Source of the DNA: Hyphomicrobiales bacterium
GTDB lineage: Bacteria; Pseudomonadota; Alphaproteobacteria; Rhizobiales; UBA4765
NCBI GenBank assembly: GCA_021732205.1
Contig: JAKFVK010000254.1
Span: 1 to 38,703 of the forward strand
Direction of reading: 5' to 3'
Length of the DNA stretch: 38,703 bases
Made by a program: the position numbers and the translations under genes. Positions 597 to 16,452 of the stretch are shown here, one piece after another (position 1 is the stretch's first letter; the number at the start of each line of letters is the position of its first letter). The notes under the pieces were generated by a model. The model had not been told where the DNA came from. It was given only the letters and a program-made list of their open reading frames with translations, and did not search any database.

Positions 597-775
597 GGTG
601 ATCTCCTTTGTCTGGTTACTGCGCCGACAGTGGAATGGATGCACACGAGGCTCAGAAATTAATTGATCGACCGCGTGACGCCGTGCCTGCGCCTCCTTTC
701 ACAGTTTGACAGGCCTTCCATTGCGTGCTGCGATCACGCTATTGTATTTTGGCGTTGCACTACCGGGAGGGCTGG

Positions 776-1720
776 ATGTTTCGTTTCGTGGCTGCCGCCA
801 TCGCTGCGCTGATCGCGCTTGTCGCGACACCCCTTGCGGCTCAAACCAAGGTCAGCATCGGCTTTTCGGGCTGGACCGGCTTTGCCCCGCTTGTGTTGGC
901 CAAGGAAGCCGGGATATTCGCCAAAAACGGCCTCGACATCACCTTGAAGAAGATCCCGCAAGCCAGCCGCCATCTCGCCATGGCAGCAGGTGACATCCAG
1001 TGCGCGGCAACGACGGTTGAAACCTGGATTGTGTGGAATGCGGCCGGCATTGCCAGCACACAGATTTTTCAGATGGATAAATCCTACGGCGCCGACGGCA
1101 TGGCGGTGCGCGGCAATATTGCCTCAATCAAGGATTTGAAGGGAAAGCAGGTTGCCGCCTCCGCTCCCGGTACCGCGCCCTATTTCACGCTTGCCTGGTT
1201 TTTGAAAAAGAACGGGCTTTCCGTCAAGGATGTGACGGTCGTCAACATGGAGCCAGGCCCCGCCGCCCAGGCTTTCATCGCCGGACAGAATGACGTTGCG
1301 ATGACCTATGAACCCTATCTTTCGGCGGTCCGCGATAAGCCGGAAGCCGGCAAGATCATCGCCACCACGCTGGACTATCCCATGATCATGGACACGTTCG
1401 GCTGCACGCCGAAATTCCTCGCCGAGAATGAGGCTGCGGCCAAAGCGCTGGCGAAGAGCTATTTCGAGGCGGTCGCCCTGATCAAATCGGATCAGTCGAA
1501 AGCCTATGACATCATGGGCGCCGACGTGAAGCAGAGCGGCGAACAGTTTGGCAATTCGGCGAAATATCTGCGCTGGCAGGACAAGGATGCCAACAAGGCC
1601 TTCTTTGCCGGCGATTTCAAGTCGTTCTCCAGGGAAGCTGCCGATCTCCTTCTGGAAATTGGTGTCATCAAGCAGATACCCGATCTGACCAGGCTGGCGG
1701 ATACGCGCTTTCTCGACTGA
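776..1720 (+). CDS. NitT/TauT-type ABC transporter substrate-binding protein
   Basis: A 314-residue periplasmic binding protein. The start at ATG 776 follows GGGAGG and begins a Sec signal peptide (FRFVAAAIAALIAL, cleavage near LAAQ). An in-frame start at 725 would bury this signal and is less likely. After the signal come the features of the SsuA/TauA/ThiY-like fold: GFSGWTGFAPLVLAKEAG at the first lobe, then IKDLKGKQVA, and an APGTAPYFTLAWFL loop. Members bind nitrate, taurine, alkanesulfonates, pyrimidine thiamine precursors or aromatic acids. The sequence seen here does not settle which. The permease follows after 78 bases and the ATPase overlaps the permease, giving a complete importer. 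No riboswitch was recognised upstream. Confidence 0.88.
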   Translation: MFRFVAAAIAALIALVATPLAAQTKVSIGFSGWTGFAPLVLAKEAGIFAKNGLDITLKKIPQASRHLAMAAGDIQCAATTVETWIVWNAAGIASTQIFQMDKSYGADGMAVRGNIASIKDLKGKQVAASAPGTAPYFTLAWFLKKNGLSVKDVTVVNMEPGPAAQAFIAGQNDVAMTYEPYLSAVRDKPEAGKIIATTLDYPMIMDTFGCTPKFLAENEAAAKALAKSYFEAVALIKSDQSKAYDIMGADVKQSGEQFGNSAKYLRWQDKDANKAFFAGDFKSFSREAADLLLEIGVIKQIPDLTRLADTRFLD

Positions 1721-1798
1721 TGGCGAGCGCTCGTGCTTTTGCGATGTCGACAGTCCGGCATGTCCTGACACGCTGGGCCCATACATGTATCTGATCTC

Positions 1799-2572
1799 AT
1801 GAAACCGCTTGAGCCCATTTCCTTTGGCGCGCGCCTGGCGTTGGGTCTGTTGTTCTTCGTCGTTTTTGTTGCCGCATGGTCCCTGGCGACATTCGGTGGC
1901 TACGTGTCGAAGACATTCCTCGCCGATCCGCTGACGATGATCGACGAGGGGCGTATCCTCATCGTGCGCTATGGCTTTCTGGGCGATATTGCCATCACCA
2001 TCTGGCGGGTCGTCGGCGGTTTCGTTCTGGCGGCGGCCGTTGCTGTTCCCCTCGGTGTGCTGATGGGGGCCTACAAGCCGGTCGAGGCGCTGCTGGAGCC
2101 GTTTATATCGTTTGCCCGCTATCTCCCGGCTTCGGCCTTCATCCCCCTTCTTATTCTCTGGGCTGGAACCGGCGAGCTGCAAAAACTGCTCGTCATCTTC
2201 ATCGGCTCGTTTTTTCAGCTCGTTCTGATCATCGCCGTGACAGTTGGTGGCACGCGGCGCGATCTCGTCGAGGCAGCGCTGACGCTGGGCGCGAAGGATA
2301 GCCGCATCCTCACCCGCGTGCTGTTGCCGGCCGCAGGTCCGCAGATCGCCGAGACCTTGCGCCTTGTCCTTGGCTGGGCCTGGACCTATGTCATCGTTGC
2401 CGAACTCATCGGCTCGTCTGCCGGTATCGGCCACATGATCATCGACAGCCAGGCCTTGCTCGCAACCGGCCAGATCATTTTCGGCATTATCGTCATCGGC
2501 ATCATCGGGCTTGTGTCCGATTTTCTGTTCAAGGCGCTCAATCGCCGCCTGTTCGCGTGGAGCACGTTGTGA
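1799..2572 (+). CDS. NitT/TauT-type ABC transporter permease
   Basis: Encodes 257 residues with about six hydrophobic segments, typical of the SsuC/TauC permease family. The conserved ATPase-contact loop is visible as [20 protein letters not shown], and the final part has the family's GIGHMIIDSQ motif followed by a last membrane helix ending in NRRLFAW. It forms the inner-membrane channel for the substrate delivered by the protein encoded at 776-1720. The stop codon TGA overlaps a GTG start of the ATPase gene (GTGA at 2569-2572), so the two are probably translationally coupled. Confidence 0.9.
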   Translation: MKPLEPISFGARLALGLLFFVVFVAAWSLATFGGYVSKTFLADPLTMIDEGRILIVRYGFLGDIAITIWRVVGGFVLAAAVAVPLGVLMGAYKPVEALLEPFISFARYLPASAFIPLLILWAGTGELQKLLVIFIGSFFQLVLIIAVTVGGTRRDLVEAALTLGAKDSRILTRVLLPAAGPQIAETLRLVLGWAWTYVIVAELIGSSAGIGHMIIDSQALLATGQIIFGIIVIGIIGLVSDFLFKALNRRLFAWSTL

Positions 2573-3351
2573 GCAAGCTCAGCGTCGAAAACGTGTCGCG
2601 GCAGTTTCCCGCTCCCAGGGGCGGTGCGCCCGTGCCGGCGCTGCTGCCGGTCGATTTGACGGTCGCCGACAATGATTTTCTCGTCCTGCTCGGACCCTCG
2701 GGATGTGGCAAATCAACCCTGCTGCGCCTGATCGCCGGGCTTGATCGCCCGACGACGGGGCGCATCCTGCTTGACGGCAGACCGGTGAGCGCGCCCGGTC
2801 CTGATCGCGGCATGGTGTTCCAGTCCTATACGCTGTTTCCGTGGCTGACGGTTGCAGACAACATCGCCTTCGGCCTGCGTGAAAAAGGCCTGGACGAGGC
2901 GAGCGTCAAACCGATTATCTCCGACTGGCTGGAGCGTATTGGCCTGGCGGGTTTTGGCAACCACTACCCCAAGCAGCTTTCCGGCGGCATGCAGCAGCGA
3001 ACCGCCATCGCCCGGGCGCTGGCAACCGATCCGACGATCCTTCTTCTCGATGAACCCTTCGGCGCGCTTGATAATCAAACACGTGGATTGATGCAGGAAA
3101 TGCTGTTGTCGATCTGGGAGAAGCAGAAAAAAACGGTGGTATTCGTCACTCATGATATTGAAGAGGCGGTTTTTCTGGCCTCGCGCGTGATCGTCATGAC
3201 CGCTCGACCGGGCCGGATCAAGGCGGAAATCGCCATCGATCTTGCCCATCCACGCCACTATACAGTGAAAACAAGCAGCGAATTTTCAGCTCTTAAGGCG
3301 CGTTTGACGGAAGAAATCCGCTCGGAGGCCTTGCTGGCCGCGCATGTTTAA
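2569..3351 (+). CDS. NitT/TauT-type ABC transporter ATP-binding protein
   Basis: An ABC ATPase of about 260 residues. It shows Walker A (GPSGCGKST), a Q-loop ([13 protein letters not shown]), the signature LSGGMQQR, Walker B ([12 protein letters not shown]) and a switch histidine ([12 protein letters not shown]), followed by the MTARPGRI segment seen in SsuB/TauB-type subunits. Two GTG starts are possible: 2569, which overlaps the permease stop by four bases, and 2557, four codons earlier. I prefer 2569 for coupling, but the choice is not decisive. It powers the importer with the two preceding genes. An AT-rich stretch of about 115 bases follows, which probably holds the promoter of the next gene. 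Confidence 0.9.
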
Positions 3352-4752: not shown

Positions 4753-5553
4753 TCAGCCCATCGGCACCGCAACGCTCTGCCCGCCATCAACGGGCAGGGC
4801 GATGCCTGTAATAAAGCGAGCGTCGTTGGAAGCCAGGAACGCTGCCGCATGGGCAATGTCGAACGCCGTTCCCATCCGCCCCATTGGCACGGCGCGGTTG
4901 CGGGCTGCCACCATCTCGTCAATCGAGGCGTAATTGCCGGCAATCTGCTTGTAGATCATCGGTGTGTCGATGAGGCCGGGCAGGATGGTGTTGGCGCGGA
5001 TGCCGTGGGGGGCATATTGAACGGCGAGGGCGGAGGTTGCCTGCACGATGGCAGCCTTTGACGCATAATAGGAAAAATAGGGGTAGCCGACGAAACGGAT
5101 CGCCGCGAGCGACGCGATGTTGAGGATGACGCCCTGCTTGCGGGCGATGAAATGCGGCAGCAGGCAGCGGCAGGTGCGGTAGACGGAGCCGAGATTGATG
5201 TCGATCGAGCGTGTGAAATCCGCTTCGGCAAGATCGATCGGACTGCCATTGACGACGACGCCGACATTATTGTGAAGGATGTCGATGGCGCCGAAATATC
5301 GAAGCGCGGTCGCTGTTGCCGCCTCGACGCTCGCAAGGTCGGTGACATCGGCGGCAAGCGCGATCACCGCGCCACCTTCGCCAGCGATGATCGCGGCGGT
5401 TTCTTCCGCCGCCGGCAGCGCGATGTCGACGGCGATGATTTTTGCGCCTTCCCGGGCGAAGGTGACGGCGGTGGCCTTGCCATTGCCCCAGCCCGGTCCG
5501 CTTGAGCCGGCGCCGAAGACGATGGCTGTCTTGCCGTCAAGCCGACCCGCCAT
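4753..5553 (-). CDS. Short-chain dehydrogenase/reductase (SDR)
   Basis: Encodes 266 residues from ATG 5553, which has AGGAG eight bases upstream. The NAD(P)-binding motif is GAGSSGPGWGNGKA, a longer version of the classical TGxxxGxG found in one SDR subgroup. NNVG replaces the usual NNAG, and the catalytic residues are the S of NIASL and the Y and K of YYASKAA. The acidic residue after beta-2 (AVDIA) suggests NAD preference. It is the last gene of the minus-strand TRAP group, 11 bases after the permease stop, so it probably oxidises a hydroxyl group of the imported substrate or of a later intermediate. The substrate cannot be read from the sequence. Confidence 0.88.
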   Translation of the reverse strand: MAGRLDGKTAIVFGAGSSGPGWGNGKATAVTFAREGAKIIAVDIALPAAEETAAIIAGEGGAVIALAADVTDLASVEAATATALRYFGAIDILHNNVGVVVNGSPIDLAEADFTRSIDINLGSVYRTCRCLLPHFIARKQGVILNIASLAAIRFVGYPYFSYYASKAAIVQATSALAVQYAPHGIRANTILPGLIDTPMIYKQIAGNYASIDEMVAARNRAVPMGRMGTAFDIAHAAAFLASNDARFITGIALPVDGGQSVAVPMG

Positions 5554-5564
5554 ATCATGCACTC

Positions 5565-7442
5565 CTATAGAAACCCGATGGAAATCCACGGCACGGCAGC
5601 AACCACACCAAGGCCGACCAGAAGCGCCAGCATATAGGCCCAGATCGGTGCGATACCCTCATCAGGATGCACCTTGCCGATGGCACAGGCGGCATAATAA
5701 CCAACGCCAAAGGGCGGCGCGAAGAGCCCGAGCCCCATGGCAAGGATCACCACCATGGCGTAGTGGACCTCATGAACGCCGACCGTTTTGGCGATGGGAA
5801 AGAGCAGTGGTCCAAACAGGACGATTGCCGGAATACCCTCAAGCACGCTGCCAAGAATTACAAAGGCGATAATCGATACAATGAGAAACCCGGCGACCCC
5901 GCCCGGCAATGTCGTCATGAAGGTGGCTAGGGTTCGCGAGAAACCCGATTGCGTCAGCCCCCACGCCATGGCTGACGCCGCGCCGATGATGAAGAGAATG
6001 GCGCCCGACAGCGTCGCCGTTTCAACCAGCATGGGCTGCAGGCGCCGAAAATCAAACTGACGGTAGATCAGGAGCCCGGCGATGACGGTATAGCCGATGC
6101 CGATGGTCGACACTTCGGTGGCCGTTGCCACGCCTTCGACCACTGCCGCGCGGATGATGAAGGGGAGAGCCAGCGCCGGCACGGCGATCACAAAGCTTCG
6201 GACGATTTCGCCACCAGTCGCTCGCCTGACTCGCGACAGGTCATCGCTGCGGTAGCGCCACGCCACCACCACGCAAAGCCCGATTGCCAGCACCAGCCCC
6301 GGCAGCAAGCCCCCCGTGAACAGGGCAGCAATCGACACGCCCGTCACCGAGCCGATGGTAATCAGCACGATTGAGGGCGGGATCGTCTCGGTCTGCGCCC
6401 CTGTAGCCGACAGCAGCGCGACGAGATCGCCCGGCTTGGCGCCGCGCGCTTTCATCTCAGGGAACAAGGCCGGTGCGACGGCTGCCATGTCAGCGGCCTT
6501 CGAGCCGGAGATACCCGAGACGAGATACATGGCACCGATCAGCACATAGGAAAGCCCGCCGCGCACATGGCCGAGCAGCGAGGCAAGAAACGTCACCATG
6601 GCGCGCGCCATGCCCGTCATCTCAATGAGCAGGCCGAGGAAGACAAACAGCGGCACCGCCAGCAGAATGAGATGGCTCATGCCCTCGTCCATGCGCCCGA
6701 CCATGACCATCGTCGGCACGCGCGTGGTGAGCGCGATGAAGCCGAAGGTGGCGATGGCAAACGCAAAGCCGATGGGAACGCCCAACAACACGGCGCCAAG
6801 CACGATGACGACAAAGAAGATGACGAGGTTGCCATAACCCAATGTCTTGAAGCCCGGTCCGGCGAATTTGAAGGCAAGCACAATCAGGGCAAGGCCGCCG
6901 AGCGTCAGGACCGCATGTGACAGGCGCGATTCCAGAACCAGACGATTGACCCCGAAGATGAGCATGAGAACAACGCCGCAGGGGAAGGCGGCAGCTCGCC
7001 ACGAGCCCGACAATTCGAGGGCGGACGTAGTGATAAAGCTCTCCTCGTAGGCGTATTCGATGGCCGATGGCAGCACGAGGACGAGGAAGCCCAGACACAC
7101 CGCCAGAGCCAGCGTGTCGAAGAATGCCTGGCGATGGGCGCCGAAATAGGCGACGAGCGCCGTCATGCGCATATGGGCGTTGGCGCGCACGGCAATCACC
7201 GCGCCAAACATGGCGAGCCACAGGAAGAGCGTCGAGGCCAGTTCATCCGACCACGTCAGAGGACGGTGCAGGACATAGCGCGCGAAGACCCCGGCAAGCA
7301 GGACAATGACTTCAGCAATAACCAGAAGGGCTGCCAGCCATGCAATGCACGCGCCGAGAGCGTTATCGAAGCGGCTGACCTGCCGCCTCCAGCCGCTTTC
7401 GTAGTCCTGTGGCTTTCGCTCAGCTGCTCCTGCGATATCCAT
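5565..7442 (-). CDS. TRAP transporter fused permease (DctQ-DctM)
   Basis: A 625-residue inner-membrane protein that fuses the small and large TRAP permease subunits. Residues 1 to about 165 are DctQ-like, with four hydrophobic helices and the RYVLHRPLTWSDELA segment. From about residue 200 the DctM part follows, with VPIGFAFAIATFGF, AVPLFVFLGLLIEMTG, SGISGSKAADMAAVAP and PPSIVLITIGS, all hallmarks of the large subunit. It uses an ion gradient to import the acid captured by the DctP protein. Its start lies nine bases after the dctP stop, so the three genes dctP, dctQM and the dehydrogenase form one minus-strand operon. Fused QM proteins are known in TRAP systems; no defect is visible. Confidence 0.92.
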   Translation of the reverse strand: MDIAGAAERKPQDYESGWRRQVSRFDNALGACIAWLAALLVIAEVIVLLAGVFARYVLHRPLTWSDELASTLFLWLAMFGAVIAVRANAHMRMTALVAYFGAHRQAFFDTLALAVCLGFLVLVLPSAIEYAYEESFITTSALELSGSWRAAAFPCGVVLMLIFGVNRLVLESRLSHAVLTLGGLALIVLAFKFAGPGFKTLGYGNLVIFFVVIVLGAVLLGVPIGFAFAIATFGFIALTTRVPTMVMVGRMDEGMSHLILLAVPLFVFLGLLIEMTGMARAMVTFLASLLGHVRGGLSYVLIGAMYLVSGISGSKAADMAAVAPALFPEMKARGAKPGDLVALLSATGAQTETIPPSIVLITIGSVTGVSIAALFTGGLLPGLVLAIGLCVVVAWRYRSDDLSRVRRATGGEIVRSFVIAVPALALPFIIRAAVVEGVATATEVSTIGIGYTVIAGLLIYRQFDFRRLQPMLVETATLSGAILFIIGAASAMAWGLTQSGFSRTLATFMTTLPGGVAGFLIVSIIAFVILGSVLEGIPAIVLFGPLLFPIAKTVGVHEVHYAMVVILAMGLGLFAPPFGVGYYAACAIGKVHPDEGIAPIWAYMLALLVGLGVVAAVPWISIGFL

Positions 7443-7451
7443 GATCTTGTG

Positions 7452-8489
7452 TCAGCTGAGTTTGCCGACGGCCGTCTCCAGGATCGTCCATGCTTCATCG
7501 CCGAATTTCTGCTTCCATTCGCCGTAGAACCCGGCGCTGCGCAGCTTTTCGCGGAAGGCCGCCGGATTGACGTCGTTGAATTTCAGACCCTTCGTCGTCA
7601 GCGTCTCGCGCAGGCCCTTCGTCAGCTCGGCGACGTCAGCGCGTTCCGCCACCGCTCCCGCATTGAGATTCTTCGCAACAATCTCCTGAATATCCTTCGG
7701 CAGAGCCTCCCAATTGCGGCGGTTGGCAAGCACCCAGAAGCCGTCCCACATATGGTTGGTGGTCGAGCAATTGGTCTGCACCTCGTAGAGCTTGCCCGTG
7801 TCGATGATGGCCAGCGGGTTTTCCTGCCCGTCGACGATTTTCGACTGCAGCGCCGAGTAGACCTCGTTGAAGTTGATGGTCGTTGGCGCCGCGCCGAAGG
7901 CCTTGAACATCGATGTCCAAAGAGGCGCAGGCGGCACGCGCAGCTTCACCCCTTCGAAATCACCAGGCGTCAGGATCGGTTTGGTGCTGGTGGTTGTCTG
8001 GCGAAAGCCATTATCCCATGGCTTGTCCATGGCAAGGATCTGCCGGCTCTTGGCGATTTCACCTCGGATATAGGCGCCAAGCGGCCCGTCCATCGCCTTC
8101 CATACCGTGTCATAGCTGTCGAAGGCAAAGCCGACGCCATTGATGGCGGCAGCCGGCACCAGCGTTGACAGGATGAGGCCGGACAGGGTGAAGAAATCAA
8201 CGCCGCCATTGCGGATTTGTCCCAGCGTATCGGTGTCGGACCCAAGCTGGCTCGATGGGAAGATCTGGAACTCGAACCGCCCGCCCGTTTCCGTTTTGAT
8301 GCGGTCAGCAGCTTCTTGCAGGCGCTTGTTGAGCGGATGCGTCAACGCCAGATTATTGGCAAATTTATAAGTGAATTCAGCCGCATGCGCGCGCCCGATG
8401 GCGAATGTCGAAATGCTGGCGGCAGTGCCCGCGAGGACGCTTCGGTTGAACAGGCGACGCGATAATGCGTAAGTTGTTTTTGTGCTCAT
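7452..8489 (-). CDS. TRAP transporter substrate-binding protein (DctP family)
   Basis: Encodes 345 residues from ATG 8489. GAGGAA lies at a suitable distance from this start, but too close to the ATG two codons earlier at 8495. The N-terminus has a twin-arginine-like SRRLFNRSVLAG followed by a hydrophobic stretch and AHAAE, so export may be by Tat or Sec. The mature part shows the DctP fold: HPLNKRLQEAADRI, then EFQIFPSSQLGSDTD, and FEGVKLRVPPAP, whose arginine is the usual carboxylate ligand of this family. The substrate is therefore most likely an organic acid. It leads the minus-strand operon and is divergent from the thiolase/ligase operon, from which it is separated by about 215 bases. 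Confidence 0.92.
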   Translation of the reverse strand: MSTKTTYALSRRLFNRSVLAGTAASISTFAIGRAHAAEFTYKFANNLALTHPLNKRLQEAADRIKTETGGRFEFQIFPSSQLGSDTDTLGQIRNGGVDFFTLSGLILSTLVPAAAINGVGFAFDSYDTVWKAMDGPLGAYIRGEIAKSRQILAMDKPWDNGFRQTTTSTKPILTPGDFEGVKLRVPPAPLWTSMFKAFGAAPTTINFNEVYSALQSKIVDGQENPLAIIDTGKLYEVQTNCSTTNHMWDGFWVLANRRNWEALPKDIQEIVAKNLNAGAVAERADVAELTKGLRETLTTKGLKFNDVNPAAFREKLRSAGFYGEWKQKFGDEAWTILETAVGKLS

Positions 8490-8632
8490 GGTCATTTCCT
8501 CACCGGTTGTCGCAGCGCGTCGATCGTTTGCAGGTGCCGAAGCGTCAGCTTTGAATAAGCACGACTATTGAGAGGCAGGGTGTGGGCTGTCAATCGCTTT
8601 CAACGCCGAACACGGCGATCACGCGCTCTGTG

Positions 8633-8665
8633 CGCTCTCCCTTGCAGCCCGTGCGCAAGAGAGCG
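8633..8665. repeat. Inverted repeat in the divergent promoter region
   Basis: CGCTCTC at 8633-8639 is matched by GAGAGCG at 8659-8665, with an inner TTGC/GCAA pair continuing the symmetry. It lies between the divergent dctP and thiolase operons, 41 bases before the thiolase start. It could be an operator shared by both operons or a hairpin in the thiolase leader. No T-run follows, so it is not a typical terminator. Confidence 0.4.
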
Positions 8666-8706
8666 AAGATGGCGCTTTGCGAAAGACCTGAAAAAGAGGA
8701 AACGTC

Positions 8707-9882
8707 ATGAGCCCGCATAAAGCTTCGATCGTCGGCTGGTCGCATTCGAATTTCGGCAAGCTCGACGATGCCGACAGCGAAGCGTTGATCGCTCGCGTCG
8801 CCTCGGGCGCGCTGGAGCATGCCGGCGTCACCCCCCAGGATATCGATTTCATCTCTGTCGGCGTCTATAATAACGGCTTCAGCAAGCAGGGTTTCGAGGG
8901 CGCGCTGGTGGCGCTCGCCATTCCCGAACTGGCGCAGACGCCGGCGATCCATGTCGAGAATGCGTGCGCGACCGGTTCAGCGGCGATCCATACCGCCCTT
9001 GATTTCATCGAAAGCGGGCGCGGCCGCATTGCCCTGGTCGTTGGTGCCGAGAAGATGACAGCAACACCAACTGCCGAGGTCGGCGACATTCTTCTCTCCG
9101 CCAGCTATCGCCGCGAGGAAGCAGCTGTCGATGCGGGATTTGCCGGCATTTTCGGCAAGATCGCTTCGCATTATTTTCAGCGCAACGGAGACCGCAGCGC
9201 CGAACTGGCGATGATTGCCGCCAAGAACCACGTGAATGGCACGCGCAACCCTTACGCCCACATGCGCAAGGATTTTGGCTTCGACTTCTGTAATACTATT
9301 TCTGACAAGAACCCCTACGTTGCCGGACCGCTGCGCCGCACTGATTGCTCGCTCGTTTCCGATGGCGCGGCAGCGCTCGTGCTTGCCGATGCCGAGACAG
9401 CGGCAACCATGGCGCGCGCGGTCAATTTCCGCGCCCGTGAGCACGCCAATGATTTTCTGCCCCTGTCGCGCCGCGATCCGATTGCCTTTGATGGTGCGCG
9501 GCGCGTCTGGGCGAAGGCGCTCGAACAGGCAGGGCTGTCGATCCATGACCTCGACCTTGTCGAGACCCATGATTGTTTTACCATCGCCGAGATGATCGAA
9601 TACGAGGCGATGGGTTTGGCCGCGCCTGGCGAGGGTTGGAAAGTGGTGCGCGAAGGGACCGCCACGCGCGAGGGTAAATTGCCGGTGAACCTGTCGGGCG
9701 GCCTCAAATCAAAGGGTCACCCCATCGGCGCGACCGGCGTCTCCATGCATGTGATGGCAGCGATGCAGGTGATGGGCGAGGCGGTCGACATGCAGAAATC
9801 TGGGGCCAATATTGCCGGCGTCTTCAACATGGGTGGCGCTGCGGTCGCCAATTACGTGTCGATCCTGGAGCGCGGCAAATGA
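8707..9882 (+). CDS. Thiolase-family protein (SCP2-thiolase-like acyltransferase)
   Basis: Encodes 391 residues; GAGGAAACGTC precedes ATG 8707. The nucleophilic cysteine is C87 in ENACATGSAA. The second motif is HDCF (about residue 287) and the third is KGHPIGATG (about residue 338). The classical C-terminal CGGG motif is replaced by NMGGAAVANY, as in SCP2-type thiolases, where the HDCF cysteine is thought to take the base role. This argues for degradative cleavage of a 3-ketoacyl-CoA, or for a condensing relative. The product also starts with ASIVGWSHSNFGKL, typical of this subgroup. It is the first gene of a four-gene overlapping operon; its stop overlaps the ligase start (ATGA at 9879). 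Confidence 0.9.
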   Translation: MSPHKASIVGWSHSNFGKLDDADSEALIARVASGALEHAGVTPQDIDFISVGVYNNGFSKQGFEGALVALAIPELAQTPAIHVENACATGSAAIHTALDFIESGRGRIALVVGAEKMTATPTAEVGDILLSASYRREEAAVDAGFAGIFGKIASHYFQRNGDRSAELAMIAAKNHVNGTRNPYAHMRKDFGFDFCNTISDKNPYVAGPLRRTDCSLVSDGAAALVLADAETAATMARAVNFRAREHANDFLPLSRRDPIAFDGARRVWAKALEQAGLSIHDLDLVETHDCFTIAEMIEYEAMGLAAPGEGWKVVREGTATREGKLPVNLSGGLKSKGHPIGATGVSMHVMAAMQVMGEAVDMQKSGANIAGVFNMGGAAVANYVSILERGK

Positions 9883-11531
9883 CCGTTTCTGCGCCCAAGG
9901 GTGGGGTGGCGTCTCATTCGCTGCGGGTGATGAACCTCGCCCATCTGGTGCGCCAGAATGCAAGGCGCTTTCCCGATCTGCCGGGCCTCATCTGGGGCGA
10001 GCGGCGTTGGAGCTGGCGCGAGATTGAAGCGGATGTATCAGCCCTTGCCGCAGCTCTCGCCGCAAACGGGATCGGCAAGGGTGACCGGGTGTTGGTTCAC
10101 TCGAAGAATACCGCCCAGATGTTCTATGCGATCTTCGCTGTCTTTCGTCTGGGTGCGGTATGGGTGCCAACCAATTTCCGCCTGCTGCCCGATGAGGTGA
10201 CCTATCTGGCGCAGTTCTCGGGCGCCAAAGCCTTTCTCTGCCATGGCGATTTTCCCGGTCACGCAGCGGCGATCAAGGCCGGTGTTCCCGGCGTTGAACA
10301 TATCTGGCGCCTGGATGAGCAAAGCCGCGACAGCCATTTTGGTGATGGCAATCTGAGCGATCTGATGGCCCCCTATCACGGCACGACGATGGCCGATTGT
10401 CCGGTTGAGCGCGATGACCCGTGCTGGTTCTTTTTTACCTCCGGCACGACCGGTCGCTCGAAAGCCTCTGTTCTCACCCATGGCCAGATGGGATTCGTAC
10501 TCACCAATCATCTGAGCGATCTGCTGCCCGCCATCACCGAGAAGGATGCCTCGCTTGTCGTCGCGCCGCTCAGCCACGGCGCGGGCGTCCATCAACTCAA
10601 CATCGTGGCGCGCGGCGCTCCAACGATTCTTCTGCCAGGCGAGCGCTTCGATGTGGCGCAGGCCTGGCAACTGATCGAAGAATATCGCGTGACCAATCTC
10701 TTCACCGTGCCCACCATTCTGAAGATGCTGGTCGAGCATCCCGCTGTCGACCAGCACGATCATCGCCAACTGCGCTACGTCATCTATGCGGGTGCGCCGA
10801 TGTATCGCGAGGATCAAAAATTCGCCCTCAAGAAGCTCGGCCCCGTCATCGTCCAGTATTTCGGCCTGGGTGAAGTGACTGGCAATATCACGGTTCTGCC
10901 GACCTATCTCCATGAGGCCGAGGACAGCGCTCAGCTGAAGCTTGGCACCTGTGGCATCGAGCGCACCGCGATGCAGGTGTCGATCCAGGATGACAGCGGG
11001 CGCGAACTGGCGCCTTTCGAAACCGGCGAAATCTGCGTCATCGGGCCGGCGGTCTTTGCCGGTTACTATGACAACCCCGAGGCCAACGCGAAGGCCTTCC
11101 GCGATGGCTGGTTTCGCACCGGCGACCTTGGCCACATGGATGAGCAAGGCTTTGTCTATATCACGGGCCGCGCCTCCGACATGTACATTTCCGGCGGTTC
11201 CAATATCTATCCCCGTGAGATCGAGGAGAAAATTCTCACCCACCCGGCAATTGCCGAAGTAGCGGTGCTCGGCCTGCCTGATCCGATGTGGGGCGAGATT
11301 GGGGTGGCGGTATGCGTGGCGCGCGAGGGGCAAGCAGTCAGCGCCGAGGCGCTTGTCGAATTCCTGGCGCCGAAAGTCCCGCGCTACAAACTGCCGCGTC
11401 ATGTCTTCTTCTGGGAGGCCTTGCCCAAATCAGGTTACGGCAAAGTGCCAAAGCGTCTCGTTCGTGACGAGATCGAGGCGCGCGGCATTCTGGCTGACCT
11501 TGCGGTTGCCAGCAAGAAGCGAGCGTCGTGA
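9879..11531 (+). CDS. Acyl-CoA synthetase / AMP-dependent ligase
   Basis: A 550-residue ANL-superfamily enzyme that would activate a carboxylic acid to its CoA thioester through an acyl-AMP. Visible core motifs are FFFTSGTTGRSKAS (AMP-binding P-loop, about residue 185), YFGLGEVTG, GWFRTGDLG (the aspartate binds the ribose, about residue 412), GRASDMYISGGSNIYPREIE at the domain hinge, and a C-terminal PKSGYGKVPKR holding the catalytic lysine. Full length for the family. The substrate-pocket sequence does not identify the acid. It overlaps the thiolase gene by four bases and the PPC gene by four bases (ATGA or GTGA junctions), so all are probably co-translated. It likely acts on the acid imported by the divergent TRAP system. 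Confidence 0.92.
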   Translation: MTVSAPKGGVASHSLRVMNLAHLVRQNARRFPDLPGLIWGERRWSWREIEADVSALAAALAANGIGKGDRVLVHSKNTAQMFYAIFAVFRLGAVWVPTNFRLLPDEVTYLAQFSGAKAFLCHGDFPGHAAAIKAGVPGVEHIWRLDEQSRDSHFGDGNLSDLMAPYHGTTMADCPVERDDPCWFFFTSGTTGRSKASVLTHGQMGFVLTNHLSDLLPAITEKDASLVVAPLSHGAGVHQLNIVARGAPTILLPGERFDVAQAWQLIEEYRVTNLFTVPTILKMLVEHPAVDQHDHRQLRYVIYAGAPMYREDQKFALKKLGPVIVQYFGLGEVTGNITVLPTYLHEAEDSAQLKLGTCGIERTAMQVSIQDDSGRELAPFETGEICVIGPAVFAGYYDNPEANAKAFRDGWFRTGDLGHMDEQGFVYITGRASDMYISGGSNIYPREIEEKILTHPAIAEVAVLGLPDPMWGEIGVAVCVAREGQAVSAEALVEFLAPKVPRYKLPRHVFFWEALPKSGYGKVPKRLVRDEIEARGILADLAVASKKRAS

Positions 11532-12421
11532 CCGTCTCGAGCCTTCCGCGCTTTGTCCGCCAGCCCGGTCCGCCGGAAACCGAACGCATGGTTGCCATTG
11601 CGGCCGGTGGCAGCCGCTTCGATCTCAAACTCGATGCCGGACTGCCGCTGCTGGAGGCCGTGCACCGCGGCTTCACGAAAGAGGGTTTTGAGAGCGGCGC
11701 CTGCGACCTTGACGGCGTGACCCTCGCGCGCCTCAGCTATTGCATTCCGGCGCTGTCGAAGACACCGGATCATGTGGCATTCTACAGCGACACCTACCGT
11801 CCTGCCGGCCCGACAATGATCAGTCGCGGAACATTGACGTTTGGGCGACGCGACGCAGCCCCGTTCTTCCATGCTCACGCTTTGTGGCGGGAGGCTGACG
11901 GGAAATTCATGGGCGGGCACATCCTGCCTGAACAGACCTTTCTTGCAAAGCCGGCAACGGTACGCGCCATCGGTTTGAGCGGCGCGCTGTTTGACGCAGG
12001 TCCAGACGCTGAAACCGGCTTCAAGATTTTCTCGCCTGTCATCGCTCCGGCGGCGCCAGCAGACGGCCCGTTCGTGGGCGTCTTTGCGATCCGCTTGCGC
12101 CCCAACAGCGATTTTTGCGGCAGCCTTGAAAAGCTGTGCGCCGATCATGGGATCAGCCATGCTGTCCTGCGCGGTGGTGTGGGCAGCACGATTGGCGTGC
12201 GCTTCGAAGATGGTCGCGAAGCTCCTAATTTTGCCACCGAAATCTTTGTCCGCGAGGGGCGGATCACGCCGGGTGCGGATGGCAGGCCTGAGGCCAGCGT
12301 CGATGTCGGTCTGATCGATTATCAGGCGCAGATTTTCGAAGGCCGCTTCAAGCGCGGCGACAACCCTGTGCTCATCACCTTCGAAATCATCCTTGAGACC
12401 GACCGACCATGGCCGGCCTGA
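11528..12421 (+). CDS. Tandem PPC (DUF296) domain protein
   Basis: Encodes 297 residues, starting at the GTG that overlaps the ligase stop. Two PPC/DUF296-like domains can be read. The first, about residues 20-170, keeps the metal-binding histidines (H115 and H117 in FFHAHALW, H131 in GGHILPEQTF). The second, about 184-290, starts FAIRLRPNSDFCGSLEKL and contains GGVGSTIGVRFEDG, but the histidine triad is replaced (VDVGLIDYQ, then EGRFKRGD). In plants PPC domains occur in AT-hook DNA-binding proteins; bacterial stand-alone versions are mostly uncharacterised. There is no AT-hook here. Its tight overlap with thiolase, ligase and dehydrogenase genes suggests a role in the pathway itself, perhaps enzymatic or ligand-sensing. 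That role is inferred. Confidence 0.78.
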   Translation: MTVSSLPRFVRQPGPPETERMVAIAAGGSRFDLKLDAGLPLLEAVHRGFTKEGFESGACDLDGVTLARLSYCIPALSKTPDHVAFYSDTYRPAGPTMISRGTLTFGRRDAAPFFHAHALWREADGKFMGGHILPEQTFLAKPATVRAIGLSGALFDAGPDAETGFKIFSPVIAPAAPADGPFVGVFAIRLRPNSDFCGSLEKLCADHGISHAVLRGGVGSTIGVRFEDGREAPNFATEIFVREGRITPGADGRPEASVDVGLIDYQAQIFEGRFKRGDNPVLITFEIILETDRPWPA

Positions 12422-13191
12422 TGGAAATCCGCTCCGCTATCGTCACGGGTGCAGCCTCAGGCATTGGTCTTGCCACAACAACGACCCTGCTGGAGGCTGG
12501 CTGGCAGGTGGCGGGTTTTGATCGCGATGGTAACGCCCTTGCGGCAGCGATGGAGCGCCTGCGCGCCTATCACGGCAGGGTGCGTCTGCACCCGCTCGAT
12601 ATCACCGATGAAGCCGCGAGCAAGGCGGCGATCAGCGAGATCATGGACGGTTTCGGACTCTTGCGCGGGGTGGTCACGAGCGCCGGCATCGCCAGCAACA
12701 CCTCTTTTTTTGACACCACACCTGACCTTATGCGGCGCATGAACGATGTGAATGTCATCGGCAGTTTCCTCACCGCCAGGATCGCTGCCGAGACAATGCG
12801 CGACAATGGGGGAGGGGCCATCGTCCTCATCGCGTCGGTGTCGGGTCTTGTTGGCAATCGTGGCCGCACAGCCTATGGCGCCTCGAAGGGCGCTATCGTC
12901 AATCTGACGCGTATCATGGCCGTCGAACTTGCAGCTCACCGCATCCGCGTGAACGCCATCGCGCCCGGACCCATCGATACAGCCATGGCGCGCCAGGTTC
13001 ATTCAGCCAGGGTGCGGGCCGAATGGTGCGACAAGGTGCCAATGGGTCGATACGGCACGCCACATGAGGTGGCGCAAGCCGCCCGGTTTCTCCTGGACGA
13101 GCAGCAGTCGGGTTATATCACCGGACAGGTTCTCGCAGTCGATGGCGGCTTTTCCATTACCGGCCTCAATGGTGGCGACGAAACGCCTTAA
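12409..13191 (+). CDS. Short-chain dehydrogenase/reductase (SDR)
   Basis: Encodes 260 residues from ATG 12409; a second in-frame ATG at 12421 overlaps the previous stop and would remove four residues. Motifs are classical: VTGAASGIGLAT for the dinucleotide, FDRDG after beta-2 (aspartate, suggesting NAD), TSAG, catalytic S in LIASVSG, and Y and K in YGASKGA, ending with VDGGFSITG. It resembles 3-hydroxyacyl-CoA or cyclic alcohol dehydrogenases, but the substrate is not determinable. It closes the thiolase operon and could supply the 3-ketoacyl-CoA cleaved by the thiolase. It is unrelated in detail to the SDR at 4753-5553, which has a different cofactor loop. Confidence 0.88.
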   Translation: MAGLMEIRSAIVTGAASGIGLATTTTLLEAGWQVAGFDRDGNALAAAMERLRAYHGRVRLHPLDITDEAASKAAISEIMDGFGLLRGVVTSAGIASNTSFFDTTPDLMRRMNDVNVIGSFLTARIAAETMRDNGGGAIVLIASVSGLVGNRGRTAYGASKGAIVNLTRIMAVELAAHRIRVNAIAPGPIDTAMARQVHSARVRAEWCDKVPMGRYGTPHEVAQAARFLLDEQQSGYITGQVLAVDGGFSITGLNGGDETP

Positions 13192-13295: not shown

Positions 13296-14813
13296 TTATG
13301 AGGCCGACGACGCACTCGCCCGGCGCCGGCGCAATGCGGCGATCTGCTCGGTCACAATCGGCCAGAACAGAAGCAGGAGCGCGATCACCATCAGCGAACC
13401 GACCAACCCGTTGGACCAGAACACCGACAGACTTCCCTCATAGCCGAGAATGGCCTGACGGAACGATGACTCCGTGCGATCGCCAAGGACGATCGCCAGA
13501 ACCAGCGGTGCGATCGGATAATCAAGCTTCTTGAAGATATAGCCGATGATGCCGAAAATCACCATTTCCCAGATATCAAAGCCTGAATTGCGCACGGTGT
13601 AGGCGCCGATGGCGCAGATGATGAGAATGATCGGCGCAACAACAGAGAACGGAATGCGCAGGATGGCGGCAAAGAGCGGTACTGTTGCCAGGACGATGAT
13701 CAAGCCAACGATATTGCCAAGATACATCGAGGCAATCAGCCCCCACACGAAGCTCTTTTGTTCGACGAACAAAAGCGGTCCGGGCTGAAGGCCCCAGATC
13801 AGCAAACCACCGAGAAGAACGGCGGCCGTCGCCGATCCGGGAATGCCGAGCGCCAGCATCGGCAGCAGCGCTGCCGTCCCGGCAGCGTGAGCAGATGTTT
13901 CTGGCGCCAGAACGCCCTCGGTTTCACCCGTGCCGAATTTGTCGCCATTTGGTGAGAAACGCTTGGCCAGGCCATAGCCCATGAACGAGGCGGCGATGGC
14001 CCCGCCAGGTGTCACACCCATCCACAATCCCACCAGCGAGGAGCGGATCAACGTCAGCCAGTATTTCGGCAGGCTCGCCCAGGTCTTCAGCACGACCTTG
14101 AGGTCGATCGCCGCCTTCTTGCCCTTGAAGGCAAGCCCTTCCTCCATGGTCACCAGGATTTCGGACACTCCAAACAGACCGATCACCACAACCAGGAAGT
14201 CAAAGCCACGCAAAAGCTGGGGGTTATCGAAGGTCATCCGCAGATCGCCCGAGACAGAATCAAGGCCCACGGCTGCGAGCAAAAAGCCAATGCACAGGGA
14301 GACGAGGATCTTGGACCTTTTGTCCTTGCCTAGGCCGATGAAGGAACAGAAGGTGAGGAAGAAGACAGCGAAATATTCCGCCGGCCCGAATTTGAGCGCA
14401 AAGCTGGCGACCAGCGGCGCCACAAATGTAATCAGGATCACGCCGGCCAGCGCGCCGATGAATGAAGCCGTAAACGCTAATGTCAGCGCTTCTGCGGCAC
14501 GCCCTTGCTGAGCCATCGGATAGCCGTCAAAGGTGGTTGCCACCGACCACGCTTCGCCCGGGATGTTGAACAGGATCGAGGTGATCGCCCCCCCGAACAA
14601 TGCGCCCCAGTAAAGCGACGTCAGAAGAATAATGGCTGAAACCGGCTCCATGCCGAATGTCAGTGGCAGCAGGATCGCCACGCCATTTGGGCCGCCAAGG
14701 CCCGGAAGTACACCAACGACGATGCCAAGCAGCACGCCGATGATCATGAACCCTATATTCTTGAACGAAAGGGCTACGTAGAAGCCGTTGAGCAGGTCGT
14801 TCAGATTTTCCAT
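13296..14813 (-). CDS. tctA: Tripartite tricarboxylate transporter large permease TctA
   Basis: Encodes 505 residues from ATG 14813 (MENLNDLLNG). The open frame extends 50 codons upstream, but that part is not membrane-like and overlaps tctB. About eleven to twelve hydrophobic segments are present, with the family signatures GVLPGLGGPNGVAILLPLTF near the N-terminus, SILFNIPGEAWSVATTFDGYP, and a second repeat-like motif MLALGIPGSATAAVLLGGL. It is the main channel subunit of a TTT system that imports carboxylates with a cation gradient. It is the last gene of tctCBA and is followed by a hairpin terminator. Confidence 0.93.
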   Translation of the reverse strand: MENLNDLLNGFYVALSFKNIGFMIIGVLLGIVVGVLPGLGGPNGVAILLPLTFGMEPVSAIILLTSLYWGALFGGAITSILFNIPGEAWSVATTFDGYPMAQQGRAAEALTLAFTASFIGALAGVILITFVAPLVASFALKFGPAEYFAVFFLTFCSFIGLGKDKRSKILVSLCIGFLLAAVGLDSVSGDLRMTFDNPQLLRGFDFLVVVIGLFGVSEILVTMEEGLAFKGKKAAIDLKVVLKTWASLPKYWLTLIRSSLVGLWMGVTPGGAIAASFMGYGLAKRFSPNGDKFGTGETEGVLAPETSAHAAGTAALLPMLALGIPGSATAAVLLGGLLIWGLQPGPLLFVEQKSFVWGLIASMYLGNIVGLIIVLATVPLFAAILRIPFSVVAPIILIICAIGAYTVRNSGFDIWEMVIFGIIGYIFKKLDYPIAPLVLAIVLGDRTESSFRQAILGYEGSLSVFWSNGLVGSLMVIALLLLFWPIVTEQIAALRRRRASASSAS

Positions 14814-14835
14814 GATGTGACAGGCCTTCTTTTTA

Positions 14836-15327
14836 TCACAGACCCAAAAGGGCTTCGACGGGCCCCTTCGGCAGCGGCACCTGGAACCAGATTTCAAAGA
14901 TGAGGAAAGTGGCGACGACAAATGCGACTGCGCTGACGCATGAGCGGGCGACACTGAATTCACCGAGCCAGACCATGAAGATCGCCAGGAAAAGGGCAGA
15001 CGACAAATAGATGCCGAACCAGTCGATGCCGATGGTGAAGATGATGAGTGGTATCAAAACTTTGGAAATTCTGACGAGTTGCTCATAAGTCACGAAAATC
15101 TCGGGCTTGGCTCTGAGCGCGACCACGAACGTAAAGGCTGATCCGAGGAACATGATCACCGCAAGCCGCGCGGGAAAATAACCCGATTGCGGACCATCGC
15201 TGGCCCAACCGGCGCCTCGCGTGTAATTATCGTAGAATGCGACGACCGACAGTAAAAGAAAAAGGCAGGCGACAGTCAATTCTACGGTGCGGCGCGAAAT
15301 ACCGCGTTCGGCTTGCGTATCTTCCAT
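14836..15327 (-). CDS. tctB: Tripartite tricarboxylate transporter small permease TctB
   Basis: Encodes 163 residues from ATG 15327, with GAGGG about ten bases upstream. The longer frame from 15387 would run through the intergenic hairpin and is rejected. Four hydrophobic helices are visible: one near the N-terminus after the basic SRRTVE, one around YFPARLAVIMFLGSAF, and a pair near the C-terminus. This matches the TctB four-helix subunit. It ends in FQVPLPKGPVEALLGL, a common ending in this family. It lies 22 bases before tctA, so the two are co-transcribed. Confidence 0.88.
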   Translation of the reverse strand: MEDTQAERGISRRTVELTVACLFLLLSVVAFYDNYTRGAGWASDGPQSGYFPARLAVIMFLGSAFTFVVALRAKPEIFVTYEQLVRISKVLIPLIIFTIGIDWFGIYLSSALFLAIFMVWLGEFSVARSCVSAVAFVVATFLIFEIWFQVPLPKGPVEALLGL

Positions 15328-15363
15328 GATGACGTTTCCCTCAATGCAATAAGCAAACAAAAT

Positions 15364-15393
15364 CAAGGGATGGTCAGAGCCGACCATCCCTTG
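15364..15393 (-). terminator. Intercistronic hairpin between tctC and tctB (attenuator-like)
   Basis: CAAGGGATGGTC at 15364-15375 pairs without mismatch with GACCATCCCTTG at 15382-15393 around a six-base loop. It lies 12 bases after the tctC stop and 36 bases before the tctB start. Read on the minus strand it is followed by the T-rich ATTTTGTTTGCTTATT. It could be a leaky terminator or an RNA-stabilising stem that keeps the binding protein more abundant than the membrane subunits. Confidence 0.7.
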
Positions 15394-15405
15394 TGTTTCG
15401 CTACT

Positions 15406-16395
15406 TCACCTGGCGAGGAACCCTGCCTTGTCCATAAGATCTTTATGGCGTTGCTCATCCACCGTCAGGAATTCAACGAAGGCAGCACCTGAGCGAAAAT
15501 CAGGAAGGAGCGCAGTGCGAGCAAGATACTCTTTCCACTCAGCTGTATCCTGAACTTTCTTGAACAGGTCGACGTAAAAATCGCGCTGCTCATTGCTCAC
15601 GCCGCCCGGCATGAACATGCCACGCAACATGTTATACGTGAACTTGATACCCTGTTCAGCGCAAATCGGGATGTCCGACCACGCTGTTGTGTCAGTGATC
15701 TTCTCTTTGTAGGCCATCCGCTTGGGCGAAAGCAGGCAAAGAGGACGGGCATTGCCGGCACGCCAACTGGCGATCTCCTCGGAGGGATTGCCGGTTGAAC
15801 CTTCAATATGTTTACCCGCCAGCTGAACTGACGTCGGGCCGCCGCCTGCATAGGGGATATAGGTTATTTTCGCTGCTGCTTCGTCGCCGAGCGCCCAGGT
15901 GATCAGGTGATCCTCGCGCTTGGAGCCGGCCCCGCCGATGCGGATGTTCTGCCCGGTTTTCGCGGCGGCCATCAAATCCGCCGCGGTTTTGTAGGGCGCG
16001 TCATTATAGGTCCACAGCAGGAACTCATCCTGCGCCAGCATCGCGACAGGGGTGAAGTCGCGCCAGCTCACCGGCAATTTCGACGAGAGCGGCGTCATGT
16101 AGAGACCCGACGATGTGGTGAGCAGTTTGTGCGCGTCGCCTTTCGCGGCCTTGATTTCCAGCATGGCCTCGCCACCCGCAGCTGCAGGTTTGTTGACGAC
16201 AATCACCGGCGTTTTGGTTAGATTGTTTTTTGTGATGGCACCTTGAATGGTCCGCGCCATCTGATCCGAGGCGCCACCGGGCGCAAAGGGAACAACAATT
16301 TCAATTGGTTTTGTCGGTTCCCAGGCAGCAGACGCTGTCCCACAAATACTAAGTGCGCATGCTGATACAACTAGCGTAAGCCCTTTGATTTCCAT
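15406..16395 (-). CDS. tctC: Tripartite tricarboxylate transporter substrate-binding protein TctC
   Basis: Encodes 329 residues from ATG 16395, which follows GGAGGAAGGCA; an upstream in-frame start at 16437 is less likely. A Sec signal peptide (IKGLTLVVSACALSICGTAS) is followed by EIVVPFAPGGASDQMAR, the standard first loop of TTT binding proteins, and by VNKPAAAGGEAMLEI and IGGAGSKREDHL, which form the carboxylate pocket. The ligand could be a di- or tricarboxylate or an aromatic acid; the family is very large and the sequence does not decide. Two cysteines (PLCLL and PICAEQG) could form a disulfide. It is the first gene of tctCBA and has its own AT-rich upstream region. Confidence 0.92.
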   Translation of the reverse strand: MEIKGLTLVVSACALSICGTASAAWEPTKPIEIVVPFAPGGASDQMARTIQGAITKNNLTKTPVIVVNKPAAAGGEAMLEIKAAKGDAHKLLTTSSGLYMTPLSSKLPVSWRDFTPVAMLAQDEFLLWTYNDAPYKTAADLMAAAKTGQNIRIGGAGSKREDHLITWALGDEAAAKITYIPYAGGGPTSVQLAGKHIEGSTGNPSEEIASWRAGNARPLCLLSPKRMAYKEKITDTTAWSDIPICAEQGIKFTYNMLRGMFMPGGVSNEQRDFYVDLFKKVQDTAEWKEYLARTALLPDFRSGAAFVEFLTVDEQRHKDLMDKAGFLAR

Positions 16396-16452
16396 TGCCT
16401 TCCTCCATTTAATTTTTGCGGACGCCGATATCTGCAAACGTTGTTGCAGCGG

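Follow-up and report, generated by a model that had tools for sequence, protein, structure and literature searches.

The stretch of DNA considered here (38,703 nucleotides of contig JAKFVK010000254.1, assembly GCA_021732205.1, from a bacterium of the order Hyphomicrobiales; "the window") contains a gene, starting with GTG, for a protein with two PPC domains (also named PCC or DUF296). To our knowledge, bacterial PPC/DUF296 proteins are widespread and several of their structures have been solved, but no biochemical function is known for any of them; many carry a DNA-binding label by analogy with plants. The gene in the window is the third of four on the plus strand: it follows the genes for a thiolase of the SCP2 type and an acyl-CoA ligase, and precedes that for a short-chain dehydrogenase/reductase (SDR). 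As a reading made earlier from the sequence alone had stated, the four genes overlap or abut. The thiolase and ligase genes share an ATGA overlap at 9879, the ligase and PPC genes a GTGA overlap at 11528, and the PPC and SDR genes either overlap by 13 bases at 12409 or, if translation of the SDR begins at the fifth codon, meet in a TGATG at 12421. In the thiolase, the Cys in NACATGS, HDCF and GHPIGATG, which we take to be the motifs of working SCP2-type thiolases, are all intact in its translation. The extent given to this operon in the sequence-only reading stands; what that reading missed is the other half of the gene set, i.e., an SDR, a fused DctQ–DctM permease and a DctP receptor, which lie divergently on the minus strand (4753–8495) and form an importer half, and which gene is the invariant companion of PPC, described below.

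The assignment of both halves of the protein to the PPC family rests on profile comparisons. The 297-residue protein matches the Pfam PCC family (PF03479) with 42.7 bits in two stretches; no name was assigned to it in the NCBIfam scan. When aligned by hhalign with single-domain PCC proteins, domain 1 matched with a probability of 98.0 (E 1.6e-13), and its H115, H117 and H131 fell on the PCC motif HxH...GGH; domain 2 (here about residues 181–289) matched with a probability of 96.7 (E 3.6e-10) and has other residues at the positions of the triad. Thus, the earlier description of one domain with an intact triad and one in which it was lost is borne out. A profile of 46 homologues (26–95% identical to the window protein) matches the solved PPC structures 2dt4, 2h6l, 2hx0, 3htn and 3hwu. 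Among these 46 aligned sequences, the HxH...GGH triad of domain 1 is invariant, and domain 2 has invariant residues of its own (P192, G217, S220, E238 and G272, with E286 near-invariant). Because the PCC alignments place the triad of domain 1 on the PCC motif and show it lost from domain 2, the triad is, as judged from sequence, an ordinary feature of PPC domains and domain 2 is a derived copy. The prokaryotic PPC proteins PH0802 (2dt4) and AF0104 (2h6l) resemble the window protein in the profile match of both halves and, for domain 1, in the HxH...GGH motif followed by an acidic, D..TG-like tail. They differ from it in that the window protein combines two unlike domains, encoded in relatives by one fused gene or by adjacent genes, one of them without a triad, and is tied to a catabolic gene cassette. 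The scan of genome contigs found just one near-identical relative, and none was found in viral contigs.

The two domains are not always part of one polypeptide. In Roseomonas, Variovorax and others, they are encoded by separate neighbouring genes, and the separately encoded first domains keep HxH...GGH in all that could be read; at one such locus (L085) the triad seemed to be lost, but the open reading frame that was read there is not in the frame that encodes the first domain. An Agrobacterium plasmid, pAtCFBP5877a, has both arrangements side by side (L188, 8983–10881): a fused pair and, convergent beside it, a two-gene pair adjoining an Lrp/AsnC regulator. Two further genomes (G206 and G293) have a fused pair in the cassette (L036 and L034, respectively) and a two-gene pair elsewhere with no ligase nearby (L086 and L087). 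In a tree built from 66 pairs, a branch with 100/100 support sets off a side that holds every one of the 15 two-gene pairs, although the tree is unrooted and long branches meet at this point. This would fit either a single fusion or a single fission. As the domains are adjacent genes in one separate clade and fused in another, the pair itself is a conserved unit, and the suggestion in the sequence-only reading that the second domain is a structural or regulatory partner of the first fits this and the invariant residues of domain 2. Published accounts describe prokaryotic PPC proteins as single domains of about 120 residues, encoded by one gene per genome (PMC4209074). By that comparison, an obligate pair of unequal domains, within a recurrent cassette, would be a departure within the PPC family.

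Evidence for the role of the pair comes from the genes it accompanies. Among 397 genomes of the order, 70 have a relative of the PPC protein and 83 have the ligase, and the ligase is present in every one of the 70; the p value of this co-occurrence (5e-65, Fisher's test) makes it look stronger than it is, since related genomes are not independent samples; even so, the 70 span many families. Thirteen genomes of the order have the ligase without a PPC relative (G009, G019, G078, G101, G131, G147, G183, G225, G226, G245, G262, G278 and G282), and these could show what replaces the PPC protein. Gene order was counted in 82 collected loci that have a relative of the PPC protein: the ligase gene lies immediately upstream of the PPC gene in 62 and is separated from it by one SDR gene in a further 7, whereas the thiolase gene immediately precedes the ligase gene in 37. 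Thus, it is the ligase, not the thiolase, that invariably accompanies PPC. In Skermanella, PPC is present without the cassette. The sequence-only reading had named two findings that would speak against it, the lack of a conserved neighbourhood in other genomes and a fold other than PPC in the two halves; neither was found: the conservation of the neighbourhood goes well beyond what chance would give, and profile comparison assigns both halves to PPC. A role of the PPC protein in the acyl-CoA pathway is therefore well supported by gene linkage. The more specific roles once proposed (a hydratase, a hydrolase or a sensor of CoA ligands) go beyond what the linkage shows.

The full cassette comprises a tripartite ATP-independent periplasmic (TRAP) importer, an SDR, an IclR regulator, the SCP2-type thiolase, the acyl-CoA ligase, the PPC pair and a second SDR, and recurs in Hyphomicrobiales, Rhodobacterales, Rhodospirillales and Burkholderiales. 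Its contents in relatives were taken from annotated plasmid records, in which the thiolase is labelled "acetyl-CoA acetyltransferase", the ligase "acyl-CoA synthetase" and the PPC protein a DUF296 protein. Nine fully annotated cassettes have TRAP, IclR, thiolase, ligase and PPC genes together (Terrarubrum, Paracoccus denitrificans, Sinorhizobium meliloti, Roseomonas, Roseinatronobacter, Agrobacterium, Haematobacter, Alloyangia and Sulfitobacter), although both SDR genes are not found in every one. There are variants in Variovorax, Phyllobacterium, Chelatococcus, Rhizobium and Martelella; one of them, on a Burkholderiales plasmid, keeps the enzymes and TRAP genes but in a different order and without IclR. 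The window has the same set as the annotated cassettes, without an IclR gene: none lies between the two divergent halves, the place where many relatives have one. No paper tying DUF296 to this cassette was found among open-licence papers, so the cassette is recurrent but apparently undescribed. The linkage to a single ligase, and the presence of the cassette in genetically tractable bacteria such as S. meliloti, P. denitrificans and Agrobacterium, mean that assays of growth, binding and enzyme activity could directly test the function of this PPC protein.

Table 1. Features of the cassette in the window (positions are those of the window).
Feature	Position	Strand	Evidence and remarks
SDR oxidoreductase 1	4753-5589	-	Pfam adh_short_C2 8e-55; relatives annotated "glucose 1-dehydrogenase"; belongs to the cassette in relatives
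TRAP transporter permease, DctQ and DctM fused	5565-7442	-	Pfam DctM 2.8e-98, DctQ 9.2e-27; homologue near PPC in 37/69 loci
TRAP solute-binding protein DctP	7452-8495	-	Pfam DctP 3.6e-67; PDB 4oan E 9.9e-146
Divergent intergenic region between importer half and thiolase operon	8496-8706		Presumed promoter region; from sequence
SCP2-type thiolase (PRK07516)	8707-9882	+	NCBIfam 654.5 bits (cut-off 412)
Acyl-CoA ligase (PRK07470 acyl-CoA synthetase)	9879-11531	+	NCBIfam 912.6 bits (cut-off 774)
Tandem PPC/PCC (DUF296) protein, 297 aa, GTG start	11528-12421	+	Pfam PCC, two stretches; hhalign; PDB profile search
PPC domain 1, residues 28-167	11609-12028	+	Triad intact; tail D160-x-E162-T163-x-F165; hhalign to PCC; invariant or near-invariant columns
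Triad codon H115	11870-11872	+	
Triad codon H117	11876-11878	+	
Triad codon H131	11918-11920	+	
PPC domain 2, residues 185-290	12080-12397	+	Triad lost; PCC match, hhalign, alignment
SDR oxidoreductase 2	12409-13191	+	Pfam adh_short_C2 9.7e-61; adjoins ligase or PPC in relatives

Automatic annotation names such proteins "PPC domain-containing DNA-binding protein", which would make this one a regulator of its own operon. The plant AHL proteins, which share the PPC domain, do act on transcription, and the database names of the separately encoded second domain point the same way. However, AHL proteins bind DNA via an AT-hook whose core is Arg-Gly-Arg (PMC4209074), and no RGR core is present anywhere in the translation of the window protein, which agrees with the earlier remark that an AT-hook was absent; the window protein also differs from AHL proteins in having two PPC domains and a metabolic gene context. 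As the AT-hook is missing, an IclR regulator is already present in many cassettes, and the gene travels with those of enzymes and is translationally coupled to that of the ligase, regulation is ranked as the least likely explanation and is very improbable. Because the PPC gene always occurs with the ligase gene, usually adjoining it, inside a recurrent set of genes for import and breakdown, the protein is probably a metal-dependent enzyme of the pathway rather than a DNA-binding protein.

What the pathway would break down is suggested by the importer. The DctP of the window is far closer to the solved receptor 4oan than to the next (E 2.6e-40), and DctPs that are 76% identical to 4oan lie inside the PPC cassettes of two other genomes (G065 and G004). 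The structure 4oan is presumably that of a receptor of Rhodopseudomonas palustris, with ligand density modelled as (S)-2-acetolactate. In two Roseomonas species, a gene annotated as the large subunit of acetolactate synthase is found 2 kb downstream of PPC (L095, 10736–12277; L192, 11615–13156). One Rhizobium cassette runs on into genes for an acyl-CoA dehydrogenase, enoyl-CoA hydratases and 3-hydroxyisobutyrate dehydrogenase. The likeness of the receptor and the neighbouring genes are weak pointers to a short hydroxy- or oxo-acid with a branched chain. In a review, 2-acetolactate is listed among the new ligands of TRAP receptors found by Vetting et al. 2015 (PMC5812351). An AlphaFold model of DctP made from an input of only two sequences had a predicted local distance difference test (pLDDT) score near 34.

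The explanation preferred here, to which we give about an even chance, is that the two-domain PPC protein serves catabolism as a metal-dependent enzyme, working with the adjoining ligase in a cassette for the import and breakdown of an acid. The TRAP transporter would import a short, probably branched, hydroxy- or oxo-acid, the SDRs would oxidise it, the ligase would activate it with CoA, and the thiolase would cleave a β-ketoacyl-CoA. Domain 1 may hold a divalent metal, probably zinc, on H115, H117 and H131; the metal would polarise the carbonyl group of an oxo acid or CoA ester, for a decarboxylation, a hydrolysis, or a related lyase, tautomerase or isomerase step. Prokaryotic PPC proteins form trimers, and domain 2 would complete the oligomer and perhaps lend S220 and E238 to the active site. 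SCOP groups the PPC protein AF0104, acetolactate decarboxylase (ALDC, PF03306) and PTD012 in one superfamily, AF0104/ALDC/Ptd012-like. The ALDC proteins that were fetched also carry HxH...GGH, with a spacing of 10 rather than 13 residues. The human protein PTD012 (C11orf54, DUF1907) binds zinc on three histidines, decarboxylates β-ketogulonate and has a fold resembling that of ALDC (PMC12435205). ALDC, too, is a zinc protein with three histidines that decarboxylates a keto acid. The metal site is proposed because of analogy with PTD012 and ALDC, not membership of their families: neither PF03306 nor DUF1907 is among the Pfam matches of the PPC protein, the DUF1907 model matched nothing in the genomes searched, and for PTD012, with its zinc and keto-acid substrate, the likeness to the PPC pair is one of analogy only. 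The catalytic role, which draws on this analogy, is about as probable as not.

Several points weigh against this explanation. We know of no PPC protein with enzymatic activity. By hhalign, domain 1 aligned with ALDC over 17 columns around the motif, which is not significant (P 0.09); membership of the ALDC family was rejected because the motif was all that matched. An AlphaFold model of the PPC pair (input of only two sequences) reached a pLDDT of 33.6. Nothing on 4oan or its ligand came up in a literature search, so the identity given above for the ligand is tentative. In three genomes inferred to be Bradyrhizobium (L175, L176 and L177), the TRAP system closest to 4oan (84–86% identical) precedes a different acyl-CoA synthetase, about 28% identical to the window ligase and 160–260 kb from the ligase–PPC pair. 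Finally, the ligase–PPC pair stands alone in Bradyrhizobium, with no thiolase or TRAP genes nearby.

This last arrangement, in which ligase and PPC form the irreducible unit, would suit a PPC pair that serves as an accessory or allosteric subunit, one that attaches to the ligase, or to the acyl-CoA which the ligase makes, and stabilises or channels it. This can be seen as analogous to DUF35 proteins, small partners encoded beside SCP2-type thiolases; no DUF35 gene is present in the window or annotated in the cassettes read, and plant PPC domains do mediate contacts between proteins (PMC4209074). However, a scaffold needs no fully invariant triad of the metal-binding type, the DUF35 analogy predicts the thiolase as partner whereas the PPC pair follows the ligase and the thiolase is often absent nearby, and the 13 genomes mentioned above have the ligase without PPC. 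A non-catalytic partner is thus rather unlikely. The tight pairing with the ligase would also suit a metal-dependent hydrolase of acyl-CoAs or lactones that, for proofreading or salvage, frees CoA when the ligase has made a dead-end or mis-activated product, and PTD012, of possibly related fold, hydrolyses p-nitrophenyl acetate (PMC12435205). No thioesterase signature was found in the PPC protein, however, and the physiological activity of PTD012 proved to be decarboxylation (PMC12435205); such a hydrolase seems doubtful.

A narrower form of the preferred explanation, in which the pair is a metal-dependent enzyme, would make it the first PPC/DUF296 protein with an enzymatic activity: a zinc-dependent decarboxylase or lyase acting on an acetolactate-like α-hydroxy-β-keto acid that a TRAP system of the 4oan type brings in, or on the CoA ester of that acid. 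This is improbable in so specific a form. If true, alpha- and betaproteobacteria would have a catabolic pathway not yet described, and this would suggest an ancestral catalytic role for a domain that plants made into a transcription factor.

The cassette is flanked by other genes. Between 3467 and 4726 there are two long overlapping open reading frames (420 amino acids on the plus strand and 334 on the minus strand), with no Pfam match for either. Upstream of these, at 725–3351, lies an NMT1/THI5-like ABC importer (substrate-binding protein, permease and ATPase). On the other side, convergent to the cassette, a set of TctA, TctB and TctC genes on the minus strand (13296–16437) encodes a tripartite tricarboxylate transporter, a second importer of organic acids.

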